Assembly: GCA_905182815.1 (NCBI GenBank)
Contig: CAJJCX010000001.1
Coordinates: 1-64,000 of the forward strand
Direction: 5' to 3'
Length of the DNA stretch: 64,000 nucleotides
Source of the DNA: an uncultured Candidatus Thioglobus sp.
Lineage (GTDB): Bacteria; Pseudomonadota; Gammaproteobacteria; PS1; Pseudothioglobaceae
The notes under the pieces were generated by a model that searched no databases, had not been told where the DNA came from, and worked only from the letters and a program-made list of their open reading frames with translations. Each line of letters opens with the position of its first letter. Position 1 is the first letter of the stretch. Both the position numbers and the translations under genes were made by a program. Positions 6-51,504 of the stretch are shown here, piece after piece.

Positions 6-2200
6 CTAATGTTTGACATAAATATGATCTGGCTCTAAACCTTGCTGATATCTGTCATACATCATGCTATAAGCAGACTCAAGATTTCTTGCAAACAGGG
101 AGGTATCATATAAGGGCGCTGTAGACAAGTTGCCCACTAACTTGTCTTTAATGATTTTAAGTTTTTCTGGATCTGTTGCGAGCTCTATAGCAAGTGACTC
201 GTACTCTTCTGCAGTGGTTGTAATTAGTTCTGGTAAATTAAGTGCATTTAGGATACTTGCCGCATGTCTACTAACAGCTGAGCTGCCAAGGTAGGTGAGC
301 ACGGGTAATCCCATTCGCAGTGCATCACTCGCTGTAGTCCCTGCATTGTAAGGGTGAGTATCTAAGAAAAAGATCAGCAACCCGATACCTCGCTAAGTAT
401 TCAGATTTAGACAAGCGTTTTCCAAAGATAAGCCTGCTAGGATCAATGCCCCTAAGGGTTATTTCTTTTGTTAAATTTATTTGTGCAGATTCATTATCTA
501 CATAAATTAGTAATACGCTGTCTTTAACTTTTTCAAGTATTCGCCCCCAACTGTCAAAAGTAGTGGGCGTAATTTTGAAATTATTGTTAAAACAACAAAA
601 TACAAACCCTGTCTCAGGAAGCCCAACATCTTGTCGAGTAAGAGTAGTCGAAGGAGGGGATTGTGTTGAATCATTGACTTGAAAGAGGGTAGATAGACGA
701 TTTTCTCTGCATAGTATTGTTGATTATCTTCAGGAATCATTGTTTGATCTGCCACCAAATAGTCGTAGTAATTTGCGCCCAAGGTTCCAATATAGCCAAT
801 ATAACTGGCCTGAATAGGGGCCGCTGACATGGCAAATATTCCCGTTCTAGCATTTGTAGTGGATCCTCCCAAATCCACAGCAATATCGATTTCTAAAGAC
901 CTTGCAAGCATTGCCACATCTTCATAAGACATCGTGCGTACATCATGAAAGTGATCAACTCCTGCTTTAATTCGAAGATGCATTTTATCGTTTGTTTCTG
1001 GGCCATAAGAAAACGCATGGATTTCAAAGTGGTTTCTATCGTGAACTTCATAAAGCTCTGCAGTTAGAGCTGCGACAGGATGTTCTTTGAAGTCAGCAGA
1101 AAAATATCCTATGCGGATCTTTTTATGTTTAGGGTAAAGCCCTATTTTAGGCAAATCATGATTTTTTGGAAGTTTTCGTTAACGAAGATTTCAGTAGCTT
1201 TTCTCTGTAGCTCAGGATCGTCAATCAGTCCCTAGCATTGGGAATGGGGGTATAACTTTTTCGTTATTATGAATTTTATCCTGTAATTCATCAAGTCGGC
1301 TTGAGAGGTCATCCCACAGACAAAGATGCATTTTGGTGTGTAGCAATTTGCCTAAGCATAAAAATTATATCAGGTTTGAGATCAAAGGCACGTTTCATAA
1401 CTTACTAGCGCCTCATCCAATCGCTTTAAATCTGTCAGCAGATCCCCTAGGTTTGAGTACGCCTCAGGGAAGTGTGGTGCAATAGCAAGCGCCTTATTAT
1501 AGCTAGCTTCAGCATCCTCAAATCTTCCTAGCTCGTTGAGTGTGATACCTAAGTTGTTGTGGGCCTCAGCATAGTCCGGCTCAATAGCCAGTGCCTTCAT
1601 ATAGCTCTTACCTGCAGCATTTGGTTGACCGAGAACATAAAGGGTGTTACCAAGATTATTATGTCCTTCAGCGTTTTCGGGATCAATAGTGAGCATCCTC
1701 TCAAAGCACTCTACTGCTTTACTCAGTCTACCGAGATTCTTAAGAGCATTACCGAGGTTGTTATGAGCCTCAGGATAGTCAGGTTTAATAATGAGAGCCT
1801 TTTCATAACACTTAACCGCTTCCTCTAGTTGGTCTAGATCCTTAAGGGTGACGCCAAGGTTATTATATGCCTCAGCATAGTCCGACTTTATCGTGAGTGC
1901 CTTCAAATAACTCTTAACTGCATCGTCCAGTTGATTGAGTTCTTGTAAAGTCAGCCCGAGGTTGTAATGGGCATCAGCAAAATCTGATTTAATTTCTACA
2001 GCCCTCTTAAAGGATTGAACCGCCATCTCTTGTTGCCCAGTCGCCTTGTAACAAACACCACTAATATTATGAAGTAGTGCTTCATTAGGATGCTGACTTA
2101 TTAAGGTTTGAACGGTATTGAGTGCTTCCCTTATATGTCCGGAAGAAAATAGCTCAATAATAGATTCAATTTTACTATTTAGAGGGGTGAGCGTGTCCAT
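6..2200 (-). CDS. TPR-repeat GT41 (O-GlcNAc-transferase-like) glycosyltransferase, frameshifted
   Basis: Reconstructed protein of about 730 residues. An intact N-terminal TPR array (1382-2200, repeats with a YxEAHNNLG core) runs into a GT41 catalytic domain. Reading across frames gives continuous family sequence: HTKMHLCLWDD (about 1330), IDDPELQRKA (about 1210), GYFSADFKEHPVAAL (1080-1130), RLIFGKRLSKSEYLARY (about 400), then LDTHPYNAGTT (about 350), and the end at 6. Frame changes lie near 1390, 1350, 1230, 1165, 687 and 368, several beside A or T runs. The family transfers a sugar, often GlcNAc, to Ser/Thr of proteins; target and sugar cannot be read here. It lies 9 nt downstream of another TPR gene, so co-transcription is likely. 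The sequence either holds errors or the gene is dying; clustering of shifts elsewhere in the window favours errors. Confidence 0.75.
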
Positions 2201-6824: not shown

Positions 6825-7415
6825 ATGAATCCATTAACCTCTGTTAAAGGCACCATCGCTTCAGGCTTTGTTTTAGCAATTCTTGTTGCGTTCTACTTGT
6901 CACCTGAAGGCTCATCTTTGATTCAGCGTAACCTCAGTGTGTGGCTTCATGCCCTTGCAGGTGTTACTTGGGTTGGACTGCTCTATTACTTTAATTTTGT
7001 TCAAGTGCCGGCAATGGCAGACGCGCTAGCCGATGAAGGCGGTCCAGGTCCTGCTGCAATTGGTAAGTATATTGCGCCAAAGGCGTTATTATGGTTCCGT
7101 ATGTCAGCAGCTGTAACATGGTTAACAGGTGCGTGGGCTCTTTCATTGGGCTATGGCTTTACGAACGCATTCCTTTTGAAGCCTGGCGCTGAAATGATTG
7201 GCTTAGGTTCGTGGTTAGGAACGATTATGCTTTTTAATGTTTGGGTTCTTATTTGGCCAAACCAGAAAAAAATTCTTGGTATGGTTGAGGCGAGTGCTGA
7301 AGAGATTGCTAAAGCTAAGTTCACTGCGGCAATGGCCTCGCGAACTAATGTAGTCCTTTCGGTTCCAATGCTTCTTTGTATGATTGGTGCTGGCCATGGT
7401 GGGTATTTGTTTTAA
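6825..7415 (+). CDS. PuuD-like integral membrane protein (urate-oxidase N-terminal type)
   Basis: An intact 196-residue protein with four to five hydrophobic helices and the conserved segment NLSVWLHALAGVTWVGLLYY, typical of the membrane domain of PuuD-type urate hydroxylases. Full PuuD proteins end in a cytochrome c domain with CxxCH; none is present, and the protein ends MIGAGHGGYLF. No purine-catabolism neighbours are seen. It could be a heme-binding membrane subunit working with a separate cytochrome, but the substrate is unproven. It is monocistronic, ended by a good terminator at 7441-7466. Confidence 0.65.
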   Translation: MNPLTSVKGTIASGFVLAILVAFYLSPEGSSLIQRNLSVWLHALAGVTWVGLLYYFNFVQVPAMADALADEGGPGPAAIGKYIAPKALLWFRMSAAVTWLTGAWALSLGYGFTNAFLLKPGAEMIGLGSWLGTIMLFNVWVLIWPNQKKILGMVEASAEEIAKAKFTAAMASRTNVVLSVPMLLCMIGAGHGGYLF

Positions 7416-7440
7416 GTCACCAAGATTAAGTTAATTTTTA

Positions 7441-7466
7441 AAAACCGGGTTCGCCCGGTTTTTTTA
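7441..7466 (+). terminator. Rho-independent terminator after PuuD-like gene
   Basis: An inverted repeat AAAACCGGG / CCCGGTTTT with a TTCG loop followed by a T run, starting 25 nt after the stop codon. The stable tetraloop and T tract make it a standard intrinsic terminator. The remaining stretch to the next promoter (about 7467-7660) is very AT-rich and holds no ORF I can support. Confidence 0.9.
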
Positions 7467-7663
7467 TTGTATGAGTAAAAAAACAACAAAACTGCAAAAA
7501 AGTAACAAAATAAAGATCATTCAAATAAAAGTAAATAGTATTGGTGATTAGCGATCAATATCTAAAAAAAATATAACAGTAAAGCTTATCTAAAGGCTTA
7601 AAGCTAAAATATATAGAATTGTTGAAAAAAAACAACTAAATGTATTATTTTTACAAATAGTTG

Positions 7664-7692
7664 TTGACATTGGCATAGGAAGTGGTTATTAT
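7664..7692 (+). promoter_or_regulatory. Consensus sigma-70 promoter of the porin-like gene
   Basis: A perfect -35 box TTGACA (7664-7669), a 17-base spacer, and a -10 box TATTAT (7687-7692). This is the best vegetative promoter recognised in the window and points to high expression of the following outer-membrane protein. The predicted start of transcription near 7699 leaves a leader of about 70 nt. Confidence 0.8.
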
Positions 7693-7726
7693 GGTTTATT
7701 GTTATTCGTAAGAGTAGCAAAAGGCT

Positions 7727-7744
7727 GCTAAGGAAGTCCTTAGC
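7727..7744 (+). promoter_or_regulatory. 5' leader hairpin of the porin-like mRNA
   Basis: GCTAAGG-AAGT-CCTTAGC forms a perfect 7-bp stem with a 4-nt loop inside the untranslated leader, 18 nt upstream of the GGAG ribosome site. It may stabilise the mRNA or mark a site for post-transcriptional control, as is common for abundant porin transcripts; that role is inference. Confidence 0.55.
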
Positions 7745-7771
7745 AATTAAATATTCTAAATGGAGAATAAA

Positions 7772-8592
7772 ATGAAAAAACTAATCGCACTATTCGCAGT
7801 ATCTGCATGGCTTCTACATCAGCTGTTGCAGCTATTGCACTAAGTGGAGCGGCTTCTGTATCATATGATGATAACGGATCTGCAGCTTCTGCAACTACTT
7901 ATGACGCTGACTTACAGTTAGTTGGTACTGCTGGTACTACTACTGTAACATCTATGCGACGTTGACAGGCGCACAGCTTACTACTGCTGCTGCTATGGCA
8001 ACTACAATTGGTCCAGTAACTATTGCTGCTGACATGCATGATGAAGTTCATGAAGACAGCTACTACTGACTACTGGTGACTGGTAATCCTTGAGCAATTC
8101 TAGACTGATACAGGGTAACTATTAGCTTAGACGCTCCAATCGGTGACGCTACTGTTGGTGTTGATGACACTGGTAGACTTAACTGTTTCAGGTACTTGGT
8201 CTGGTATTACTATGTCATCTTCAACTGCTGACGTAACTACTGTTGCTGGAAGCATTGCTGGTATGGACGTAAGTGTAACTAACGATGATGGTTCTACTAC
8301 TTGGTCTTTAGGTACTACAGTTAGTGGTGTTGCTTTGACACTTAGCTAGCAGCCAGAAGTTACTGCTACATTTGGTCTTAGCTGGAAACACGATGGTTGT
8401 TTCAAGCTTCCTGCAGTAGCTGCAAGCTGCGATGTAACTCTGCTACAGGTAACGGTTATGGTAAGCTATAGCATCAGCTGCTTCATACTCAACTGTTGCT
8501 ATATCTCGTTCATTAACTTCAGGTGCAACATTAGCTGCTACTTATAGCACGTTGATGATTCACTTACACTTAAGGCTTCTGTTGCATTCTAA
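7772..8592 (+). CDS. Porin-like outer-membrane protein, heavily frameshifted
   Basis: Starts MKKLIALFAVSA and, after a shift near 7811, continues MASTSAVAAIALSGAASVSY: a signal peptide followed by mature beta-barrel-like sequence rich in Thr, Ala, Ser, Gly and Asp. Further in-frame stretches include LDAPIGDATVGVDDTG and TVSGTWSGITMSSS, and the end LKASVAF terminates in Phe as outer-membrane barrels do. At least six frame changes are needed over about 270 codons. Strong promoter, GGAG ribosome site at 7762 and a strong terminator flank it, so it was built for high expression. Exact porin family not determined. Either an error-rich patch or a decayed gene. Confidence 0.6.
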
Positions 8593-8637
8593 ATTCGTTT
8601 AGATTCAACGGTTGACTTAGGAATAAGTTAATATTCG

Positions 8638-8667
8638 AAAAACCCAGAGCTTGCTCTGGGTTTTTTT
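8638..8667 (+). terminator. Rho-independent terminator after porin-like gene
   Basis: AACCCAGAGC and GCTCTGGGTT form a 10-bp inverted repeat separated by two bases (effective loop larger), preceded by A residues and followed by T residues. It starts about 45 nt after the stop codon. Confidence 0.9.
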
Positions 8668-8734
8668 ATGCCTAATTAAAAATAAGCCCAGTGAAAATAG
8701 ATAAAATGAACCTACTTTAATAGCTATACAAATT

Positions 8735-9559
8735 ATGTTTTTTCATCTTAAAAATCGCTCACTTCTAAAGGTATCTGGCTCAGATGCTGAAACCTTCCTG
8801 CAGGGGCAGCTCAGCAATGATATTAGTAAGCTCGACGCATTAAGCGTTCAGCTGAATGCCTATTGCCAGCATCAGGGAAAGATCTTAGCGTTGTTCTGGG
8901 TAACGAAAAATGAGGATAGTTTCTTGCTGTCATTTCCATCAGACTTGCTCGAGGTAATAAAGCCAAGGCTTCAGATGTTTGTCATAATGTCTGATGTTGT
9001 TATTGAGGACGTAACGAAAGAGCATATCCAGTTGGCTCTATTGATGAGTCCAATCAGGAGGCATTGGTTATTAATGATAAATTATCACTAATAATTACTG
9101 ACAAAAAAGACATCAATCAATTTAATATGGAGCCAATAGAGCATTGGAATATGGCTTGTATTGATTCCTCTTTGCCAGAAATCTTTTCAATTACTAGTGA
9201 AAAGCTAGTGCCGCAGATGCTTAATTTAGATATTGATGAGTTTGGCGTTAATTTTTCAAAGGGCTGCTATCCCGGACAGGAAGTTGTTGCGAGGCTTCAT
9301 TACCTGGGCTCAGCAAAACGTCGTCTTTTTGCCTTTGAGTCTAGCTCAGAAGTAAATATTGGTGACTCTCTTTACTGCGCCTTCTTCTAAGTCTGCAAAA
9401 GCTAGAGGTGCTCGTTATAAATCAAGCGGAATAGTTATATTTAGGATAAAATATAATTCGCATTTTTATTGTTTAGCCACCCTAGAGGTCGAGCTTAAAG
9501 ATGCAAAAATAACCCTTAACAATGAACAAGGCCCAACACTAACAAGAATAAAAAAATGA
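8735..9559 (+). CDS. ygfZ: Folate-binding tRNA-modifying/Fe-S repair protein YgfZ, frameshifted
   Basis: GcvT-like folate-binding protein that supports Fe-S cluster enzymes and MiaB-dependent tRNA modification. The N-terminus reads SGSDAETFLQGQLSNDI. The family signature KGCYPGQE, with its conserved Cys, is at about 9260-9283, followed by RLHYLGSAKRRLF. Two frame changes are required, near 9030-9050 and near 9370. Reconstructed length is about 275 residues, a little below the E. coli protein. The stop (9557-9559) overlaps the nhaD start as ATGA. Confidence 0.85.
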
Positions 9560-43077: not shown

Positions 43078-43542
43078 CTAGTCAATTGGAATAGATAAAT
43101 TTTCTTTAACTTTATTCATAACCACCATTGAACTAAAGCGTTTGATATTTGGATTTTCTAAAAAATATTTTTTTGTAAAATCTTCATAATCTCCCATTTC
43201 TTTAAAGGTGGCCATTAAAACATAATCATAATCACCAGTAACGTAGTAACACTGCATAACTTCTGGGGCATCAAACATTGTTTTTTTAAATTGAATATCA
43301 GGCGCTGTGCCCTCTATATCACTCAGTATCTGTACTATAATGGTAATTTTTCTATCCAGTTGATTACGATCTAAAACTGATATATCTCTTTCTATAATGC
43401 CAGTTTTACGCATTGAATTTAATCTTCTTTGACAGGCCGAAGATGATAATCCCACTTCTTTCGCTAACTGCTGAGAAGTAATCTTATTATTTTCTTGGAC
43501 AATTTTTAGAATTTTGTAATCAAAACTATCTAATTTATTCAT
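43078..43542 (-). CDS. Lrp/AsnC-family transcriptional regulator
   Basis: A 154-residue protein with an N-terminal winged HTH (ILKIVQENNKITSQQLAKEV, SSSACQRRLNSMRKTGII) and a C-terminal RAM ligand-sensing domain (VMQCYYVTGDYDYVLMATF). It is divergent from the Ehu-type operon, so it most likely controls that operon and itself from the 135-nt intergenic region. AsnC-type regulators (DoeX/AsnC) are also typical of ectoine-utilisation clusters. Confidence 0.93.
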   Translation of the reverse strand: MNKLDSFDYKILKIVQENNKITSQQLAKEVGLSSSACQRRLNSMRKTGIIERDISVLDRNQLDRKITIIVQILSDIEGTAPDIQFKKTMFDAPEVMQCYYVTGDYDYVLMATFKEMGDYEDFTKKYFLENPNIKRFSSMVVMNKVKENLSIPID

Positions 43543-43677: not shown

Positions 43678-44520
43678 ATGAAAAAAATCATTTCGATTTT
43701 TACATGTTTTTTTCTTGTTTTAGGTTTAGCACAAACATCTTCTGCTGAATCTGATACATTAAAAAGACTTAAGAAACAAGGATATGCAACAGTTGCTGTT
43801 GCAAATGAACCACCTTACAGTGATATTAAATCTGATGGCTATGTTACTGGTGCTGCACCAGATGTTGCGCGTGCTGTTCTTGCCGTTCTAGGTGTTCCAG
43901 AGTTAAAAGCTGAGGTTATTATGTATGGCGCTATGATTCCTGCTCTACAAGCAAGAAGAGTAGATATGGCAACTTCTGGTCTTTACATTAAGCCTGGCAG
44001 ATGTGAGTCTATCATTTATTCTGAGCCTGATTTATGTGGCGCTGAAGCTTTTGCTGTTCCAGCTGGAAACCCAAACAACCTATTAACTTATGAAGACATT
44101 GCTGCTAACCCAGCTTTAAAAATGACTACATGTGCTGGTTGTGCTGAAGAAAAATATGCTTTAGAGCGCGGTGTAAGTGCTGATCAGATTGTTTATTTTG
44201 ATGCGCCTCCAAGTGGTATTAAGATGCTACAACAAGGTAGAGTTGACGTTTTTGCTCTATCAGGTTTAGGTACAGCAGATCTACTTAATAAAACTAATGA
44301 TCCAAACCTTGAGTTAATAATGCCTGTTACAGGTGTTCCAATGGGTTGTGCTGGTGCAGCATTTAACAAGGATGATTTAGAGTTCAGGTCTGAATACAAT
44401 ATGGCTTTAGCTATGTTAAAGGCTACTGGAGAGTTTGAGGCAATTATTGCGCCTTATGGTTTCTCTGCGGCTGCAACTGCTTCGAAGTCTTATTTGACTC
44501 AATGTCCTGATGGAATGTAA
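43678..44520 (+). CDS. ehuB: Ehu-type ABC transporter substrate-binding protein, Cys-rich
   Basis: A 280-residue periplasmic protein with a signal peptide (IISIFTCFFLVLGLAQTSSA). The mature part follows the ectoine/hydroxyectoine-binding EhuB pattern: LKRLKKQGYATVAVANEPPY, GAMIPALQARRVDMATSGLY, KPGRC. Six Cys lie in the mature region (109, 120, 152, 155, 224, 276), including a CAGC motif where family members commonly have a GAVE-like sequence, suggesting disulfides or a metal site. The ligand may be ectoine or another small zwitterion; the neighbouring enzymes argue for something else. A stem-loop follows, which should favour excess of this subunit. Confidence 0.8.
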   Translation: MKKIISIFTCFFLVLGLAQTSSAESDTLKRLKKQGYATVAVANEPPYSDIKSDGYVTGAAPDVARAVLAVLGVPELKAEVIMYGAMIPALQARRVDMATSGLYIKPGRCESIIYSEPDLCGAEAFAVPAGNPNNLLTYEDIAANPALKMTTCAGCAEEKYALERGVSADQIVYFDAPPSGIKMLQQGRVDVFALSGLGTADLLNKTNDPNLELIMPVTGVPMGCAGAAFNKDDLEFRSEYNMALAMLKATGEFEAIIAPYGFSAAATASKSYLTQCPDGM

Positions 44521-44597: not shown

Positions 44598-44631
44598 CTG
44601 CCCTGTCGTTTTTTACAGGGCAGTTTTTTTT
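44598..44631 (+). terminator. Intra-operon terminator/attenuator after ehuB
   Basis: A 9-bp perfect stem CTGCCCTGT / ACAGGGCAG with an 8-nt T-rich loop followed by eight T residues, 10 nt before the ehuC start. A partial copy of the stem (CTGCCCTGTAAATATT) lies 50 nt earlier. It should terminate most transcripts after the binding-protein gene and let a fraction read through to the permeases. Confidence 0.85.
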
Positions 44632-44641
44632 AGAGTTTTTT

Positions 44642-45310
44642 ATGAATGAAGTTTTAGAGTTTTACCCACTACTTATTAAAGGAACTATCACAACGATACA
44701 GTTGACTGTAATGGGTGCAATCTTAGCACTCATTGTTTCATTTATTGTTGGAATTGCACGAATATCTTCATTTGCCTCAGTAAGAGTTGCAGCAATTATT
44801 TATTTAGAATTTTTTCGTGGCAGTTCAGCTCTTGTTCAAATGTTTTTTATTTATTTTGTTTTGCCAATGTGGGGCATTTATTTTGATGCCATAACTGCGG
44901 GTGTTATTGCTTGTGGCCTGAATGTTGGTGCCTATGGATCAGAAGCTGTAAGAGGAGCTATACTTGCTGTTAGCAAGGAGCAACATGAGGCATCAAAAGC
45001 TTTAAACTACTCAAGTTACGAGAAATATAGATACGTTATTATTCCTCAAGCAATTCCAATTATGATTCCTACATTTGGGAATCTACTTATTGAGCTGATG
45101 AAATTAACAGCAGTATGCTCTCTTATTACTATTTCAGATCTTACTTTCATGGCCCAAATAATTAGGGTTCAGACTGCTTTAACATTAGAGCCATTCCTAT
45201 TAATTCTCATTATTTATTTTATTATTGCTACAGTCTTAGTTCAGATAGTAGACATGATTGCTAAGAAGTTTTCTAAAGGTAGAAATATTATGACTGCAGG
45301 AGACAAGTAG
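44642..45310 (+). CDS. ehuC: Ehu-type ABC transporter permease EhuC
   Basis: A 222-residue polar-amino-acid-type permease with about five helices. It starts YPLLIKGTITTIQLTVMGA and contains the EAA-type coupling motif EQHEASKALNYSSYEKYRY. The stop is 2 nt before ehuD. Confidence 0.85.
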   Translation: MNEVLEFYPLLIKGTITTIQLTVMGAILALIVSFIVGIARISSFASVRVAAIIYLEFFRGSSALVQMFFIYFVLPMWGIYFDAITAGVIACGLNVGAYGSEAVRGAILAVSKEQHEASKALNYSSYEKYRYVIIPQAIPIMIPTFGNLLIELMKLTAVCSLITISDLTFMAQIIRVQTALTLEPFLLILIIYFIIATVLVQIVDMIAKKFSKGRNIMTAGDK

Positions 45311-45312
45311 TC

Positions 45313-45978
45313 ATGGAATGGAATTGGGATCATGCATATGCAGTCTTACCTCAGCTTCTTAAAGGCTTAGTCATTACAATTGAAGCTACCATTGTTGCAT
45401 CCTTAATTGCTTATATTTTAGGATTAGCAATAGCTATTTTCAAGATGTCTAAAAGCAAGTTTGTACGCGTTTCCTTATATTGGATGACGGAGTTTGTTAG
45501 AAGAACACCAATCCTAGTGCAGTTATATGTTGTATTTTATGTCCTTCCTGATTTTGGAATTTTCCTAGAAGCCTTTACATGTGGGGTAATTGTATTAGGT
45601 ATTCACTTTAGTACATATACGTCTGAAGTTTTTAGGGCCGGCATTGATAATGTTTCTAAAGGGCAGTGGGAAGCTGCAAAGTCTCTAAACTATAATCCAT
45701 ATCAAGCTTGGAAGCATGTTATTTTGCCTCAAGCTATCCCCCCTATGATTCCGCCACTTGCAAACTATTTGATCACAATGTTTAAGGAGACGCCATTGTT
45801 GGCATTTATTACAGTAGTTGAATTATTTAGAGCAGCGGATCAATATAGTAATAGTTATTACACTTATCTTGAGCCTATGACCCTTGTTGGGGTGTTCTTT
45901 TTAATCGTATCTATTCCCTCAGCAATGCTAGCAATGAAATTAGAAAAGAAATTTAAGCCAATAAAGGTGACTCGATGA
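45313..45978 (+). CDS. ehuD: Ehu-type ABC transporter permease EhuD
   Basis: A 221-residue second permease, paralogous to the first. YAVLPQLLKGLVITIEATIV at the N-terminus and coupling motif GQWEAAKSLNYNPYQAWKHV. Its stop overlaps the start of the molybdoenzyme gene by 4 nt (ATGA), tying that enzyme tightly to transport. Confidence 0.85.
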   Translation: MEWNWDHAYAVLPQLLKGLVITIEATIVASLIAYILGLAIAIFKMSKSKFVRVSLYWMTEFVRRTPILVQLYVVFYVLPDFGIFLEAFTCGVIVLGIHFSTYTSEVFRAGIDNVSKGQWEAAKSLNYNPYQAWKHVILPQAIPPMIPPLANYLITMFKETPLLAFITVVELFRAADQYSNSYYTYLEPMTLVGVFFLIVSIPSAMLAMKLEKKFKPIKVTR

Positions 45979-48257
45979 ATTTCGTAAGTTCGCACTGGGG
46001 AACTTATAATTTTTCAGTAGATAAGAATAAAAAAATACAATTAGATAATTGGGGGTTAGATTCTTCTCCAACAGAATTTGGTTTAGGTCTGGCTGATGCT
46101 GCTATCGATAATTTAAGAATCACTCAGCCTCATGTAAGAAAAGGATGGCTAGATAATATAGGTAAAAGTGATGGCAAAAGAGGCCAAGATGAGTTTATAC
46201 CTGTCAGCTGGGATGAGGCATTTGAGCTTGCATCTAAAGAGCTATTAAAAACTAAAAATGTCTATGGTAATTCAGCAATTTATGCCGGGTCGTATGGATG
46301 GGCAAGTGCTGGAAGATTTCACCATGCTAAAAGCCAAGTTAATCGTTTCTTTAATTTATTTGGAGGCTTTAGCTCATCATTTCAAAGTTACTCATACGCC
46401 GCAGCGCAAACCCTCCTTCCTCACATAATTGGTTTAGACTTATATACAACACTAGAGGAGCATACGACCTGGAATGCTCTATCTGAGGAGTGTGAGTTAA
46501 TATTAATGTTTGGCGGAATGCCATTAAAAAACTCTAAAGTTTCAGCTGGAGGCGTAGGAAAGCACGTTACCAAGTTAGGCATAAAAAAGTGCTTTGATAA
46601 AGGGGTCGAATTTATTAACATTAGCCCTCTTATAGATGACGCGCCTAAATTTTTAAAAGCACAGCAAGTTCCTATTCGGCCAAATACTGATACTGCTTTA
46701 ATGTTGGCTCTAGCTCATATTTTGATTAAAAATCAATCTTATGATAAGGGTTTCATAGAGAAATATACTGTGGGATTCGATAGTTTTTCTGACTACGTAC
46801 AAGGCAAAAAAAATAATCAAGAATGCAGCCCTGAATGGGCATCAAAAATTACAAATATTCCTGTCAAAACAATCTACGAGCTAGCAAATAAAATAATAAC
46901 AAAAAAAACCATGATTTCTTTATCTTGGAGCCTACAAAGAGCATCGAGAGGGGAGCAGCCTTTGTGGATGGGAATTACTCTTGCGGCAATGCTAGGGCAA
47001 ATCGGAACTGCCAGTGGTGGCTTTGGATTTGGATACTCTAGTGTAAATAGTACAGGTGATTCATTTGATAAAATTCCTTGGCAAAGCCTACCTCAAGGTA
47101 AAAATAAGATTAAAGATTTTATTCCAGTTGCAAGAGTAACCGATATGCTGGAAAACCCAGGAGGGGAGTTTGATTATGATGGAAAGAAATTAACATACCC
47201 AGATATAAAATTAATTTATTGGGCGGGAGGAAATCCCTTTCATCATCATCAAGACTTAAATCGACTGACTAAAGCTTGGCAAAAACCCAATACAATTATT
47301 GTTAATGAAATTTGGTGGAATTCTCAGGCTCGTCACGCTGACATTATTTTTCCAGCTAACACCGCTTTAGAGAGAAATGATTTAATGCTGAATCCAAGAG
47401 ATCCAACAGTTGTAGCGAATAAAAAAGCTATGAAAAGCTATAAAAATTCAAAAACTGATTTTGAAATATTTTCAGGGTTATCAAAAAAACTGGGCTTTCT
47501 AGAATCATTTACTGAAGATAAGAGTGAATTGGATTGGATAAAATTTATATGGAATAACAGCTCAAAAGCACATCAAAAAAATATAAGTTTTCCAAGTTTT
47601 GAAGAATTCTGGGAAAAAGGGTATTTTGAACTTCCAGCCCCAAAGATTGAAAAAATTATGTTTAATGATTTTAGAAAAGATCCAATTAATTTTCCTTTAA
47701 ATACCCCTTCAGGAAAAATAGAAATATCTTCTGAAACTATATCTAACTTTCAATTAAGTGATTGCTTCTCCCACCCTTACTGGTTTGAGCCATATGAGTG
47801 GTTAGGAAACATAGATGAATATCCATTGCATTTAATTTCAAATCAGCCAACGCATAGACTCCACAGTCAGCTTGATAACGCTGCCAATAGTCAGAACAGT
47901 AAAATAAAAGGCAAGGAGCCAGTGATGATTAATCCATCAGACGCTCTAGAAAGAGATATTCAGGATGGTGATATTGTGATGTTATTTAATAAAAGAGGAA
48001 GGGTATTGGCTGGCGCAAATATTTCTGATAGTGTTATGCCTGGAGTTGTTGTACTGTCAACTGGCGCCTGGTTTGATCCAGACTATGCTTTAAATTTAGA
48101 GAGACATGGCAACCCTAATGTTCTCACAAAAGATGTTGGAACTTCGTCTTTAAGTCAAGGACCAACTTGCCATACAACTTTAGTACAAGTGAAAAAAGCA
48201 AAGAGAGAGGAAATTGTGGATGTGAATATTTTTAAAACTCCAGAAACCCTTAATTGA
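45975..48257 (+). CDS. BisC/DMSO-reductase-family molybdopterin oxidoreductase, cytoplasmic
   Basis: An intact 760-residue bis-MGD enzyme without N-terminal Fe-S motif or Tat signal, as in BisC (biotin/methionine sulfoxide reductase). The probable Mo ligand is Ser140 in QSYSYAAAQTLLPH. Tyr107 in GSYGW matches the Tyr found in DMSO and biotin-sulfoxide reductases and missing from TMAO reductases, suggesting an S-oxide substrate. Other landmarks are WAGGNPFHHHQDLNRL, NEIWWNSQARHADIIFPA and SNQPTHRLHSQLDN. It sits between the permease and ATPase genes of the transporter, so its substrate is probably the imported compound or a derivative. Electron donor unknown. Confidence 0.85.
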   Translation: MNFVSSHWGTYNFSVDKNKKIQLDNWGLDSSPTEFGLGLADAAIDNLRITQPHVRKGWLDNIGKSDGKRGQDEFIPVSWDEAFELASKELLKTKNVYGNSAIYAGSYGWASAGRFHHAKSQVNRFFNLFGGFSSSFQSYSYAAAQTLLPHIIGLDLYTTLEEHTTWNALSEECELILMFGGMPLKNSKVSAGGVGKHVTKLGIKKCFDKGVEFINISPLIDDAPKFLKAQQVPIRPNTDTALMLALAHILIKNQSYDKGFIEKYTVGFDSFSDYVQGKKNNQECSPEWASKITNIPVKTIYELANKIITKKTMISLSWSLQRASRGEQPLWMGITLAAMLGQIGTASGGFGFGYSSVNSTGDSFDKIPWQSLPQGKNKIKDFIPVARVTDMLENPGGEFDYDGKKLTYPDIKLIYWAGGNPFHHHQDLNRLTKAWQKPNTIIVNEIWWNSQARHADIIFPANTALERNDLMLNPRDPTVVANKKAMKSYKNSKTDFEIFSGLSKKLGFLESFTEDKSELDWIKFIWNNSSKAHQKNISFPSFEEFWEKGYFELPAPKIEKIMFNDFRKDPINFPLNTPSGKIEISSETISNFQLSDCFSHPYWFEPYEWLGNIDEYPLHLISNQPTHRLHSQLDNAANSQNSKIKGKEPVMINPSDALERDIQDGDIVMLFNKRGRVLAGANISDSVMPGVVVLSTGAWFDPDYALNLERHGNPNVLTKDVGTSSLSQGPTCHTTLVQVKKAKREEIVDVNIFKTPETLN

Positions 48258-48303: not shown

Positions 48304-49080
48304 ATGAATAATATTATACAGTTTGAAAATGTTTCAAAATCTTTCGGAGATTTAAAGGTTTTAGATAAGTTAAATTTGGAAGTGAAAGATGGTGAAAAAT
48401 TAGCTTTGATAGGGCCAAGTGGTTCTGGAAAGACAACAATCTTACGAATTTTGATGACACTAGAAACTATTGATGATGGCTTTGTTTCAGTTAATGGTGA
48501 ATATTTATGGCATGAAAAAAATAATGGAAAAATTATCCCAGCCTCTGAAAATCATCTTCACAAAATGCGTGATCATATTGGGATGGTCTTTCAGCAATTC
48601 AATTTATTTCCTCATCTAACTGCTATTGAAAATGTTGAACAGCCCCAGATCTTAATAAAGAAAAGATCAAAGCCTGAGGCGAAAGATAAGGCTGAAGAAT
48701 TATTTAATTTAATTGGGCTAAACGATAAAAAAGATCATTATCCTCATGAATTATCAGGTGGCCAGCAGCAACGCGTAGCAATAGCTAGAGCTTTAGCTAT
48801 GGAGCCAAAAATTATGTTGTTCGATGAAGTTACCTCAGCTCTAGATCCAGAGCTTGTTGATGAGGTATTAACTGTTCTTCGTAAGTTAGCATCTGATACG
48901 GATACTACGATGTTAACGGTTACTCATGAAATGAACTTTGCACGAGAATTTGCAGATAGAGTTTTATTTTTTGATGCGGGTCAAATAGTGGAGTCTGGAA
49001 AGCCTGAGAATATTTTTGCAAATCCAGAAAAGAGACGAACTAAAGAATTTCTTAAAAAATTTATTAACAACGTCAATTAA
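48304..49080 (+). CDS. ehuA: Ehu-type ABC transporter ATPase EhuA
   Basis: A 258-residue polar-amino-acid-type ATPase. Walker A GPSGSGKTT, Q-loop FQQFNLFPHLTAIENV, signature LSGGQQQRVAIARAL, Walker B IMLFDEVTSALDPELV and switch His in TVTHEMNFAREFA. It completes the four-gene transporter started at ehuB, separated from the permeases by the molybdoenzyme gene. Confidence 0.9.
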   Translation: MNNIIQFENVSKSFGDLKVLDKLNLEVKDGEKLALIGPSGSGKTTILRILMTLETIDDGFVSVNGEYLWHEKNNGKIIPASENHLHKMRDHIGMVFQQFNLFPHLTAIENVEQPQILIKKRSKPEAKDKAEELFNLIGLNDKKDHYPHELSGGQQQRVAIARALAMEPKIMLFDEVTSALDPELVDEVLTVLRKLASDTDTTMLTVTHEMNFAREFADRVLFFDAGQIVESGKPENIFANPEKRRTKEFLKKFINNVN

Positions 49081-49109: not shown

Positions 49110-50318
49110 ATGATTAAACAATACAAACACTTAGTTCATTCAACAAAACATTTTGAGAATTTAAACATTCAAGCTGACTTTGAATACAAGCATCAGCATA
49201 TATTGAGTTTAGAGGCATTTGAACGAGCAAATAAAGAAATCACCACGTGGGATAATTATGAGCCAACACCGCTCCATTTTTTCCCTGATATGGCCAAAGA
49301 TGCCGGCGTTTCATCAATTGCATACAAGGATGAAAACTTTCGTTTCTCTCTCAAAAGCTTTAAAGCCCTTGGAGGTGCGTATGCAGTAGCCAATCTTTTA
49401 ATTAAGAAACTAAAGGACATTGGAATTACAGCTAGCTCAAAGGATCTTATTGCTGGTACATATAAACATGAAACTTCTAAAATTACTGTCTGCTGCGCAA
49501 CTGATGGAAATCACGGCAGGTCAGTTGCTTGGGGATCTCTTCATTTTGGGTGTAACTGTGAAATTTATATTCATCGAAATGTCAGTGTTGGGCGAGAAGA
49601 GGCAATTGCTAAATATGGAGCACAAGTTAATAGAATTAAAGGGAACTATGATGATTCAGTTCGTTTAGCTGCTGAAGTAGCCGATAAAAATGATTATACG
49701 GTTGTATCTGACACCTCCTATGAAGGTTATACGGATATTCCAAAAGATGTAATGCAGGGATACACTGTAATGGTGGATGAGTCTCTCAAGCAGTTGGATG
49801 AAATGCCAACACATGTTTTTTTACAAGGAGGCGTTGGAGGATTCCCAGCAGCTGTTGTTTCCTTCATAGTTGAGAGCCTCGAGTTTCCTCCTATTTTCGT
49901 GATGGTAGAGCCGACAAATGCTGATTGCTTATTTCAGAGTGCGGTTAATGAAAAGCCAACTGTTATCCACGGTGATCTAGATACCATAATGGCCGGTCTT
50001 GCTTGTGGAGAAGTATCTTTATTAGCATGGTCTATACTTGAGAGTTATGTGCCCCACTTTATGTCAATAACTGATGAATCAATCCCTAAAGTGATGCAAC
50101 TTCTTGCCAATCGAGACAAACCTATTGTTGCTGGAGAGTCTGCTGTTACTGGACTGGCAGGATTCCTCATAGCATGCAATGATAGTGACCTTAAAGAAAA
50201 ACTGTCAATTAATGAGAGTTCAAAGATTTTATTTTTTGGGACAGAGGGTGACACCGATGAAACGATGTACGAAGAATTAGTGGGCAGGTCTTCATCCGAA
50301 GTTTTAAGCGGCCTTTAA
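49110..50318 (+). CDS. dpaL: Diaminopropionate ammonia-lyase-like PLP enzyme
   Basis: A 402-residue fold-type II PLP enzyme close to YgeX/DpaL, which converts 2,3-diaminopropionate to pyruvate and two ammonia. The PLP Lys is Lys85 in SLKSFKALGGAYA. Asp132 in CATDGNHGRSVAWGS matches the second catalytic residue described for E. coli DpaL (Asp120). The phosphate/Gly loop is FLQGGVGGFPAAV and the C-terminal FFGTEGDTDETMYEELVG is family-typical. It follows ehuA by 29 nt. Related eliminases act on other beta-substituted alanines, so the true substrate may differ. Confidence 0.85.
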   Translation: MIKQYKHLVHSTKHFENLNIQADFEYKHQHILSLEAFERANKEITTWDNYEPTPLHFFPDMAKDAGVSSIAYKDENFRFSLKSFKALGGAYAVANLLIKKLKDIGITASSKDLIAGTYKHETSKITVCCATDGNHGRSVAWGSLHFGCNCEIYIHRNVSVGREEAIAKYGAQVNRIKGNYDDSVRLAAEVADKNDYTVVSDTSYEGYTDIPKDVMQGYTVMVDESLKQLDEMPTHVFLQGGVGGFPAAVVSFIVESLEFPPIFVMVEPTNADCLFQSAVNEKPTVIHGDLDTIMAGLACGEVSLLAWSILESYVPHFMSITDESIPKVMQLLANRDKPIVAGESAVTGLAGFLIACNDSDLKEKLSINESSKILFFGTEGDTDETMYEELVGRSSSEVLSGL

Positions 50319-50337
50319 TTTGACAGGAGATAAAGAA

Positions 50338-51504
50338 ATGATTATTCCAACTAGAGGCTTTGAAGTTTCTGAATATGAAAATAGGCTTAATAAAATTCAA
50401 AAACTTATGTTTGAGTCTAAGATGGATGTTATCTTATTGACTACTCAGGTTGATATTGAGTATTACACAGGTTTTAAAACTCAATTCTTTCAAAGTCCAA
50501 CAAGGCCTTGGTATGTTCTGATTCCAGCCAGTGGCAAACCTCAAGCAATTATTCCTACGATCGGTGAGTCTGGAATGAGAGAAACATGGGTTGATGATAT
50601 AAAGACGTGGACTTCTCCCAACCCAAAAGACGATGGAATTAGTATTCTCTTGTCTTCAATAAACTCCTTAACGAAGACTCATAAATGTCTTGGTGTTCCT
50701 AAAACCCTCGAAAGCACTCTAAGGATGCCACTGGGTGATTACGAATATTTAATAAACGCTTTAAATGGTATTGAGATTAAAGATGCAAACAAAATTCTCA
50801 GAAAAGTAAGGTTTGTAAAATCAGCAGCAGAAATTGCAAAGATTAAACATATCTGTCAGTTAACTTCACAAGGCTTTATAGATTTAGAAGGTTTTCTTAA
50901 GGCTGGTGAAAGCGAGCGTGAAAATTGCAAGAGATTCAAGCAGCACCTTCTATCTTTGGGGGCAGATGACACTCCTTATATTGTTTCAGGTTCTGGACAA
51001 GAAGGATATGGCTCAATTATTATGGGGCCAACAGAGAAAATCATTGAAGAGGGTGATCTTTTTATAATAGATACTGGCTCAGTTTTTGACAGTTATTTCT
51101 GTGACTTTGATAGAAATTATGCATTTGGACACATAGGAGATGAAGCTAAAAAAGCTTATAGAGTTGCCTATGATGCTACTGAGGCAGGATTTAATGCTGC
51201 TCAAGTCGGAAACACAACCTCAGATATTTTTAATGCAATGAATGATATCCTCCAAAAAGGTGGAGCTTTAGGCAACACAGTTGGCAGGCTTGGGCATGGG
51301 CTCGGAATGCAGTTAACTGAGTGGCCATCAAATACTTCAACTGACAATACTGTTCTTGAGCCGGGTGTTGTTTTGACTTTAGAGCCAGGAATGGCGTTTC
51401 TTCCAGGTAAAGAAATGGTTCACGAAGAAAATATTGTCATTACTGAAAACGGACCTGAGTGGCTCAGTATAAGAGCTGCGGATGAATTACCAATAATTCA
51501 GTAG
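50338..51504 (+). CDS. M24-family metallohydrolase (Xaa-Pro-peptidase/ectoine-hydrolase-like)
   Basis: A 388-residue protein with a creatinase-type N-terminal domain (VDIEYYTGFKTQF) and a pita-bread C-terminal domain. The five metal ligands are present: Asp245 and Asp256 (IIDTGSVFDSYFCDFD), His320 (RLGHGLGMQ), Glu349 (LTLEPGMAF) and Glu364 (VHEENIVIT). Start chosen at ATG 50338, preceded by AGGAG at about 50325. M24 proteins of ectoine clusters (DoeA/EutD) hydrolyse the ectoine ring, but others are peptidases or act on different C-N bonds. Last gene of the cluster, 19 nt after dpaL. Confidence 0.85.
   Translation: MIIPTRGFEVSEYENRLNKIQKLMFESKMDVILLTTQVDIEYYTGFKTQFFQSPTRPWYVLIPASGKPQAIIPTIGESGMRETWVDDIKTWTSPNPKDDGISILLSSINSLTKTHKCLGVPKTLESTLRMPLGDYEYLINALNGIEIKDANKILRKVRFVKSAAEIAKIKHICQLTSQGFIDLEGFLKAGESERENCKRFKQHLLSLGADDTPYIVSGSGQEGYGSIIMGPTEKIIEEGDLFIIDTGSVFDSYFCDFDRNYAFGHIGDEAKKAYRVAYDATEAGFNAAQVGNTTSDIFNAMNDILQKGGALGNTVGRLGHGLGMQLTEWPSNTSTDNTVLEPGVVLTLEPGMAFLPGKEMVHEENIVITENGPEWLSIRAADELPIIQ

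Follow-up and report, generated by a model that had tools for sequence, protein, structure and literature searches.

A predicted cytosolic oxide reductase encoded within an EhuABCD-type importer cassette of an uncultured Candidatus Thioglobus sp.

Organization of the locus

The window analysed here is a stretch of 64,000 nucleotides from an uncultured Candidatus Thioglobus sp. (contig CAJJCX010000001.1, positions 1 to 64,000, forward strand). It carries, in this order, hppA (reverse strand), eamA (forward), the divergent regulator gene lrp (reverse), the forward genes ehuB, ehuC, ehuD, bisC and ehuA, and two further forward genes for a lyase and an M24 metallohydrolase. The functional unit is the six-gene cassette lrp, ehuB, ehuC, ehuD, bisC and ehuA. 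The features are:

43078-43542, reverse strand: lrp, divergent regulator gene of the Lrp/AsnC family, left end of the cassette (Pfam AsnC_trans_reg)
43678-44520, forward strand: ehuB, substrate-binding protein of the EhuB family (TIGR02995, 287 bits, cut-off 190.9; best PDB match 2q88)
44598-44623, forward strand: hairpin with T-run in the gap between ehuB and ehuC, probable attenuator or partial terminator (terminator scan; consensus match alone)
44642-45310, forward strand: ehuC, permease (TIGR03004, 237 bits, cut-off 197)
45313-45978, forward strand: ehuD, permease, its stop codon overlapping the bisC start (TIGR03003, 273 bits, cut-off 205)
45975-48257, forward strand: bisC, predicted S-/N-oxide reductase of the BisC clade, cytosolic, 760 aa (with Tyr107, Trp109, Ser140 as predicted Mo ligand, and Arg322)
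48304-49080, forward strand: ehuA, ABC ATPase, right end of the cassette (TIGR03005, 395 bits, cut-off 345)
49110-50318, forward strand: PLP enzyme of the diaminopropionate ammonia-lyase family, resident, outside the cassette (NF006058, 481 bits)
50320-51504, forward strand: M24 metallohydrolase, Xaa-Pro dipeptidase-like and weakly DoeA-like, resident, outside the cassette

A first-pass annotation of this DNA had placed a molybdoenzyme gene inside an ABC transporter operon. The open reading frame is real, and its neighbours EhuB, EhuC, EhuD and EhuA all exceed the NCBIfam equivalog cut-offs for the ectoine/hydroxyectoine type. As that annotation also observed, bisC separates the permease genes from the ATPase gene, lying between ehuD and, at a distance of 46 bp, ehuA. 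The ATG of bisC overlaps the ehuD stop codon (ATGA) and is immediately preceded by AAGGTG, an arrangement consistent with translational coupling. Between ehuB and ehuC, a strong G+C hairpin (CTGCCCTGTCG...ACAGGGCAG) is followed by eight T; it probably lets EhuB exceed the permeases in amount. No electron-donor gene was found within the six-gene cassette. Downstream of the M24 gene, the segment 51588-55657 encodes an iron/Pot-type ABC ATPase, an imelysin-like protein and further ORFs, possibly an iron-uptake locus.

EhuB aligns with 2q88 across 246 residues. At the positions compared, which we take to be ligand-binding, lobe 1 keeps Glu, Tyr and Arg and has Tyr in place of two Phe, and lobe 2 of the cassette EhuBs reads AGCAEEK where 2q88 has GGGTEEK. 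Because of this lobe-2 segment, it may be too simple to regard EhuB of the cassette as an ectoine-binding protein. Ectoine catabolism proper was considered and rejected, as no DoeA is present: the window M24 protein scores 74 (NF038259) and 51 bits (TIGR02993), the cut-offs being 575 and 613.

The enzyme and its active site

The bisC product starts with ATG and has 760 residues. Its stop-to-stop frame extends just 6 codons beyond the ATG on the 5′ side, so that a signal peptide would not fit, and inspection of residues 1-40 revealed no RR. The earliest Cys is residue 173 and the N-terminal 4Fe-4S cysteine motif is absent. Hence, the protein is cytoplasmic and without an Fe-S cluster, in agreement with the earlier statement that it lacks a Tat signal and an Fe-S motif. 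It scores 904 bits against TIGR00509 (bisC_fam), under the NCBIfam cut-off of 1017, and contains two molybdopterin domains as its sole Pfam matches, PF00384 (Molybdopterin) and PF01568 (Molydop_binding). With a PDB match to 1eu1 (E 1.6e-186), nearest solved relatives that are all oxide reductases, the DMSO reductase fold, the molybdopterin domains, a Ser at position 147 and no 4Fe-4S motif, it has the features of type III (Dor/Tor/Bis). It is a soluble type III enzyme of the DMSO reductase family and, as predicted from its sequence, an S-/N-oxide reductase. The host genome contains moaA and mobA. A second molybdoenzyme in this genome was considered and rejected, the other PF00384 match being NuoG. 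In-frame stops seen in the bisC of three congeners are most likely matches overrunning the natural ORF end, because the open frames there span 752-767 aa.

The first-pass annotation had left the positions of Tyr107 and Ser140 to be checked by structural alignment, and both proved to be correctly placed. In the alignment with 1eu1, Tyr107, Trp109 and Ser140 correspond to Tyr114, Trp116 and Ser147 of DMSO reductase; the equivalents of Tyr114, Trp116, Ser147 and Arg326 are all retained, and the serine is invariant in every aligned row. An AlphaFold model (pLDDT 79.6, with low confidence at 109-111, 184-187 and 323-325) bears out the fold, Foldseek giving TM scores of 0.87-0.88 to MtsZ (7l5i) and DMSO reductase (1dmr/4dmr). 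By fold, pyrogallol transhydroxylase was also detected as a relative.

Tyr107 had further been read as a sign of sulfoxide rather than N-oxide reduction, and this goes too far. Every combined S-/N-oxide reductase has Tyr114, and TorA types alone are without it (Dhouib et al. 2016, PMC5122715), so that Tyr107 indicates a capacity for S-oxides, not a preference for S over N. The equivalent residue is constant across the members of the enzyme's clade and absent from E. coli TorA. Its presence makes a strict TorA-like N-oxide role less likely and is uninformative on which molecule is reduced.

In two trees, the window enzyme fell into a clade apart from E. coli BisC, TorZ and TorA, DMSOR, MtsZ and Tat-exported TorA-like proteins, with a support of 100/100 for the separate clade in one of the two; it did not group with BisC proper. 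The biotin sulfoxide reductase of Rhodobacter sphaeroides may belong in the same clade. The published three-group scheme of the enzyme family has no mention of this clade (PMC5122715).

The pocket was compared over the 223 columns that are invariant among BisC, TorZ, TorA, DMSOR and MtsZ. Residues replaced in spite of this invariance are D145, T148, Y165, Q167, Q168 and W196, and the DYST motif has become (S/T/N)YS(Y/F/other) in nearly all clade members. Among the most variable of the 223 columns within the clade are window positions 157-163 (DMSOR 163-168, including Tyr165) and 191 (Trp196); Tyr165 and Trp196 presumably line the substrate funnel of DMSOR. The equivalents of Trp116, Ser147 and Arg326 never vary within the clade. 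A constant core with shifting pocket positions fits a conserved chemistry acting on changing substrates.

Distribution, gain and loss of the cassette

Among 83 genomes of the family, the same nine, including that of the window, contain both BisC and EhuB and the other 74 contain neither, the nine not being independent because the block is co-inherited. BisC identity across these nine genomes is 82-100%; copies of 93-96% identity occur in the uncultured SUP05 cluster and one of 83% in a Candidatus Thioglobus, all within the genus of the window, which itself comes from a SUP05/Candidatus Thioglobus genome. Marine alphaproteobacterial single-cell genomes (AG-447, AG-457, AG-414) contain BisC at 67-73% identity in the order bisC-ehuA-lrp-ehuBCD. 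This linkage recurs in nine genomes of the genus as well as in marine Alphaproteobacteria, and the association of bisC with ehu genes is therefore not due to chance.

At other sites in the genus the order is bisC-ehuA-(lrp, reverse)-ehuB-ehuC-ehuD. The adjacency of bisC and ehuA (gap of 29-86 bp) is found in the Thioglobus and the AG-series alphaproteobacterial copies, except at two alphaproteobacterial loci (L043 and L076), and this pairing survives changes of block order and of chromosomal site. Since the window arrangement is nested in the tree within the arrangement led by bisC-ehuA, the split between permease and ATPase genes is a derived form. Moreover, lrp is co-located with the cassette in several Thioglobus and alphaproteobacterial copies.

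Most of the genus carries the diaminopropionate ammonia-lyase gene, irrespective of whether BisC and Ehu are there. In three genomes (G031, G007 and G008) eamA directly adjoins the lyase gene, representing an empty site at which the M24 gene follows as well; G007 and G008 have the cassette elsewhere. The lyase and M24 genes are therefore not cassette members. For the same reason, residence throughout the genus and presence at empty sites, the idea that both form the remaining pathway, e.g. an N-acetyl-diaminopropionate or DHMICA route, was rejected.

At the eamA-lyase junction of three other genomes (G005, G024 and G026; loci L114-L116) short 3′ remnants of lrp were found, in G005 and G024 together with 3′ remnants of ehuA, from which it follows that the cassette was once there and was then deleted. 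The breakpoints of these scars differ among the three. Apparently, the six-gene cassette has moved between distant lineages and has been lost more than once at the window site. Those parts of the literature on SUP05 and ectoine, on AEGEAN-169 and on SUP05 and DMSO reductase that were at hand gave no account of it.

Importers beside other members of the clade

An immediately adjacent, co-directional transporter subunit was found in 9 of 18 distinct clade contexts and beside 11 of 68 background genes (p = 0.005), in a small sample made up of 18 contexts chosen by hand and two stretches of background; this strict count supersedes a looser one (8/13 vs 10/69). Beyond the Thioglobus and the alphaproteobacterial AG copies, importers also recur next to plasmid-borne members of the clade. 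On Pantoea agglomerans plasmids (L101 and L103, both at 6974-9289) MetQ-MetN-MetI genes are followed, after a gap of 3 bp, by the bisC-like gene. In a plasmid of Bartonella sp. HY328 (L097, 8005-13292) the order is TctC-bisC-TctB-TctA, the enzyme gene being located within an operon for a tripartite tricarboxylate-type transporter, so that the window arrangement has an independent counterpart here. Pantoea dispersa has an amino-acid ABC transporter followed by bisC, and ABC-bisC arrangements occur in Agrobacterium vitis, Variovorax, Mycolicibacterium and rhizobia. The importer types beside clade members also include Pep. On a plasmid of Ponticoccus alexandrii (L091, 8980-11256) a clade member belongs to an MTA-salvage operon with purine-nucleoside phosphorylase, mtnA and a RuBisCO-like protein. 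For the clade members in the MetNIQ and MTA contexts, sulfur oxides are the natural guess. No adjacent importer was found beside the clade members of SAR116, Sagittula and locus L081.

Some of these neighbourhoods showed further features. Past the molybdoenzyme gene, the P. agglomerans loci encode an oxygenase of the isopenicillin N synthase family and a second MetQNI, a candidate operon for methionine sulfoxide scavenging. The P. alexandrii enzyme is a candidate methylthioadenosine/methylthioribose sulfoxide reductase. Near the BisC homologue of SAR116 (L044-L070) there are genes for a 980-aa FAD/Fe-S oxidase, a class V aminotransferase and an Asp/Glu racemase-like protein, together with two large genes resembling hydantoinase A/B, as judged from sequence.

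We tentatively propose, at somewhat less than even odds, that this large, apparently undescribed cytosolic clade is a plug-in module for uptake operons, in which the core Tyr, Trp, Ser and Arg stay constant and the pocket (157-163 and 191) changes fast, each copy being tuned to the oxidised cargo of its partner importer.

Proposed function and alternatives

Because of the strong genomic linkage to EhuABCD, action of the enzyme in the cytoplasm on an imported molecule, as the first-pass annotation suggested, is likely and well supported; that this molecule is the importer's own cargo we infer. Our main reading, to which we assign a probability of roughly two in three, is that BisC is a cytoplasmic bis-MGD oxide reductase that reduces the oxidised cargo of its partner importer. 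The cassette would probably be controlled by the Lrp-like regulator. The importer, with EhuB as binding protein, EhuC and EhuD as permeases and EhuA as ATPase, would bring in a small amino-acid- or ectoine-like molecule with an oxidised S or N. BisC would then remove the oxygen via its Ser140-ligated molybdenum, with Tyr107 and Trp109 in the pocket, and the reduced cargo would pass into the cell's normal metabolism. As the oxidised group, S-oxide is somewhat favoured over N-oxide or N-hydroxy. Candidates are methionine sulfoxide, other amino-acid sulfoxides and N-oxidised cyclic amidines or guanidines, which the evidence does not separate; for the cyclic sulfoxide amino acid chondrine, also considered as a cargo, a literature search gave nothing useful.

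The alphaproteobacterial copies bear on the nature of the cargo. There, the cassette is flanked by mostly co-directional genes for EutA-, EutB- and EutC-like proteins, a CysK-like PLP enzyme, M20 and M24 hydrolases, an aldehyde dehydrogenase and an arginine:glycine amidinotransferase-like protein (PDB 1jdx). In AG-457-A08 (L042, 4161-17697) amidinotransferase-, EutA-, EutB- and EutC-like genes, BisC, the Ehu importer and CysK-like, M20 and M24 genes form an apparent catabolic cluster. L043 and L076 retain the enzyme and the catabolic gene set, and the Ehu-like transporter nearby is a different one (EhuB 26-29%), so that the enzyme may be linked to the pathway rather than to EhuB; this and the clade members that lack an adjacent importer count against the main reading.

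Such surroundings, together with the ectoine/hydroxyectoine-type scores of all four transporter subunits and the fact that Tyr114-type enzymes also reduce N-oxides, could indicate a cargo akin to ectoine, namely a cyclic amidine or guanidine bearing an N-oxide or N-hydroxy group, with BisC, as an N-oxide/N-hydroxy reductase, heading a catabolic pathway. We consider this unlikely. The alphaproteobacterial EutA- and EutB-like proteins remain under the NCBIfam cut-offs and DoeA is far under (60 vs 613 bits), the lobe-2 segment of EhuB differs from that of 2q88, and we know of no natural N-oxidised ectoine. In addition, the cassette-bearing SUP05 genomes lack EutC- and amidinotransferase-like genes: no amidinotransferase-like gene was found in SUP05 genomes, and EutC appeared only distantly (about 30%), in three cassette-less genomes. 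Accordingly, in SUP05 the reduced cargo would most likely feed straight into resident metabolism.

It is a good deal less probable that BisC is an ordinary repair enzyme for methionine sulfoxide or biotin sulfoxide merely travelling beside an ectoine-type importer with no common substrate. E. coli BisC, which reduces free methionine sulfoxide and biotin sulfoxide without an operon-encoded donor (PMC7759655), does such repair from a stand-alone gene, and the family resemblance (TIGR00509) points the same way. Nevertheless, mere co-travelling would hardly account for complete co-occurrence, co-transfer, the retained bisC-ehuA pairing and the ATGA overlap, and the enzyme's clade is separate from BisC and has changed pocket residues. 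Finally, the six replaced pocket and loop residues and fold relatives such as pyrogallol transhydroxylase, which are not oxide reductases, might suggest that in vivo the cargo is hydroxylated, dehydrogenated or transhydroxylated rather than reduced; this is highly improbable with the Tyr114, Trp116, Ser147 and Arg326 equivalents all in place and oxide reductases as the nearest solved relatives.

Taken together, location, family, lack of Fe-S and a likely imported substrate stand from the first-pass annotation, and Tyr107 does not demonstrate S-oxide specificity; the distinct clade with its altered pocket, the gained-and-lost cassette and the position of the lyase and M24 genes outside the unit are points it did not contain.

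Marine dissolved organic sulfur and nitrogen include oxidised small molecules, most consumers of which are, to our knowledge, not known. A cassette of importer and oxide reductase that SUP05 exchanges with open-ocean Alphaproteobacteria suggests that a compound is being traded, and this compound could be identified by finding the ligand of EhuB. The wider clade would provide a rule by which substrates of annotated "S/N-oxide reductases" are predicted from their partner importers.

Comparison with known systems

The EhuABCD ectoine/hydroxyectoine importer of Sinorhizobium meliloti resembles the window importer in its four subunits, all over the equivalog cut-offs, and in the 246-residue EhuB-2q88 alignment. 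The window system differs by having bisC inside the gene order, by the changed lobe-2 ligand segment, by no adjacent doeA/doeB in SUP05 and by no enuR. With E. coli TorA and the Shewanella TMAO reductase the window enzyme has family and fold in common, but TorA is a periplasmic enzyme with TorC/TorD as partners and has no counterpart of Tyr107. The Rhodobacter DMSO reductase (DorA) and H. influenzae MtsZ share the fold (TM 0.88), the Mo-ligand serine and Tyr114/Trp116; at 39-40% identity to them, the window protein has neither the leader of an exported enzyme nor a cytochrome partner gene. E. coli BisC is likewise a cytoplasmic, single-subunit enzyme without Fe-S and without a dedicated electron donor gene, with a Tyr-Trp-Ser active site. 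However, identity to it is 37%, the clades are separate (100/100) and the E. coli gene stands alone; E. coli BisC keeps DYST and Tyr165/Trp196, whereas the window enzyme has SYSY, Leu160 and Ala191.
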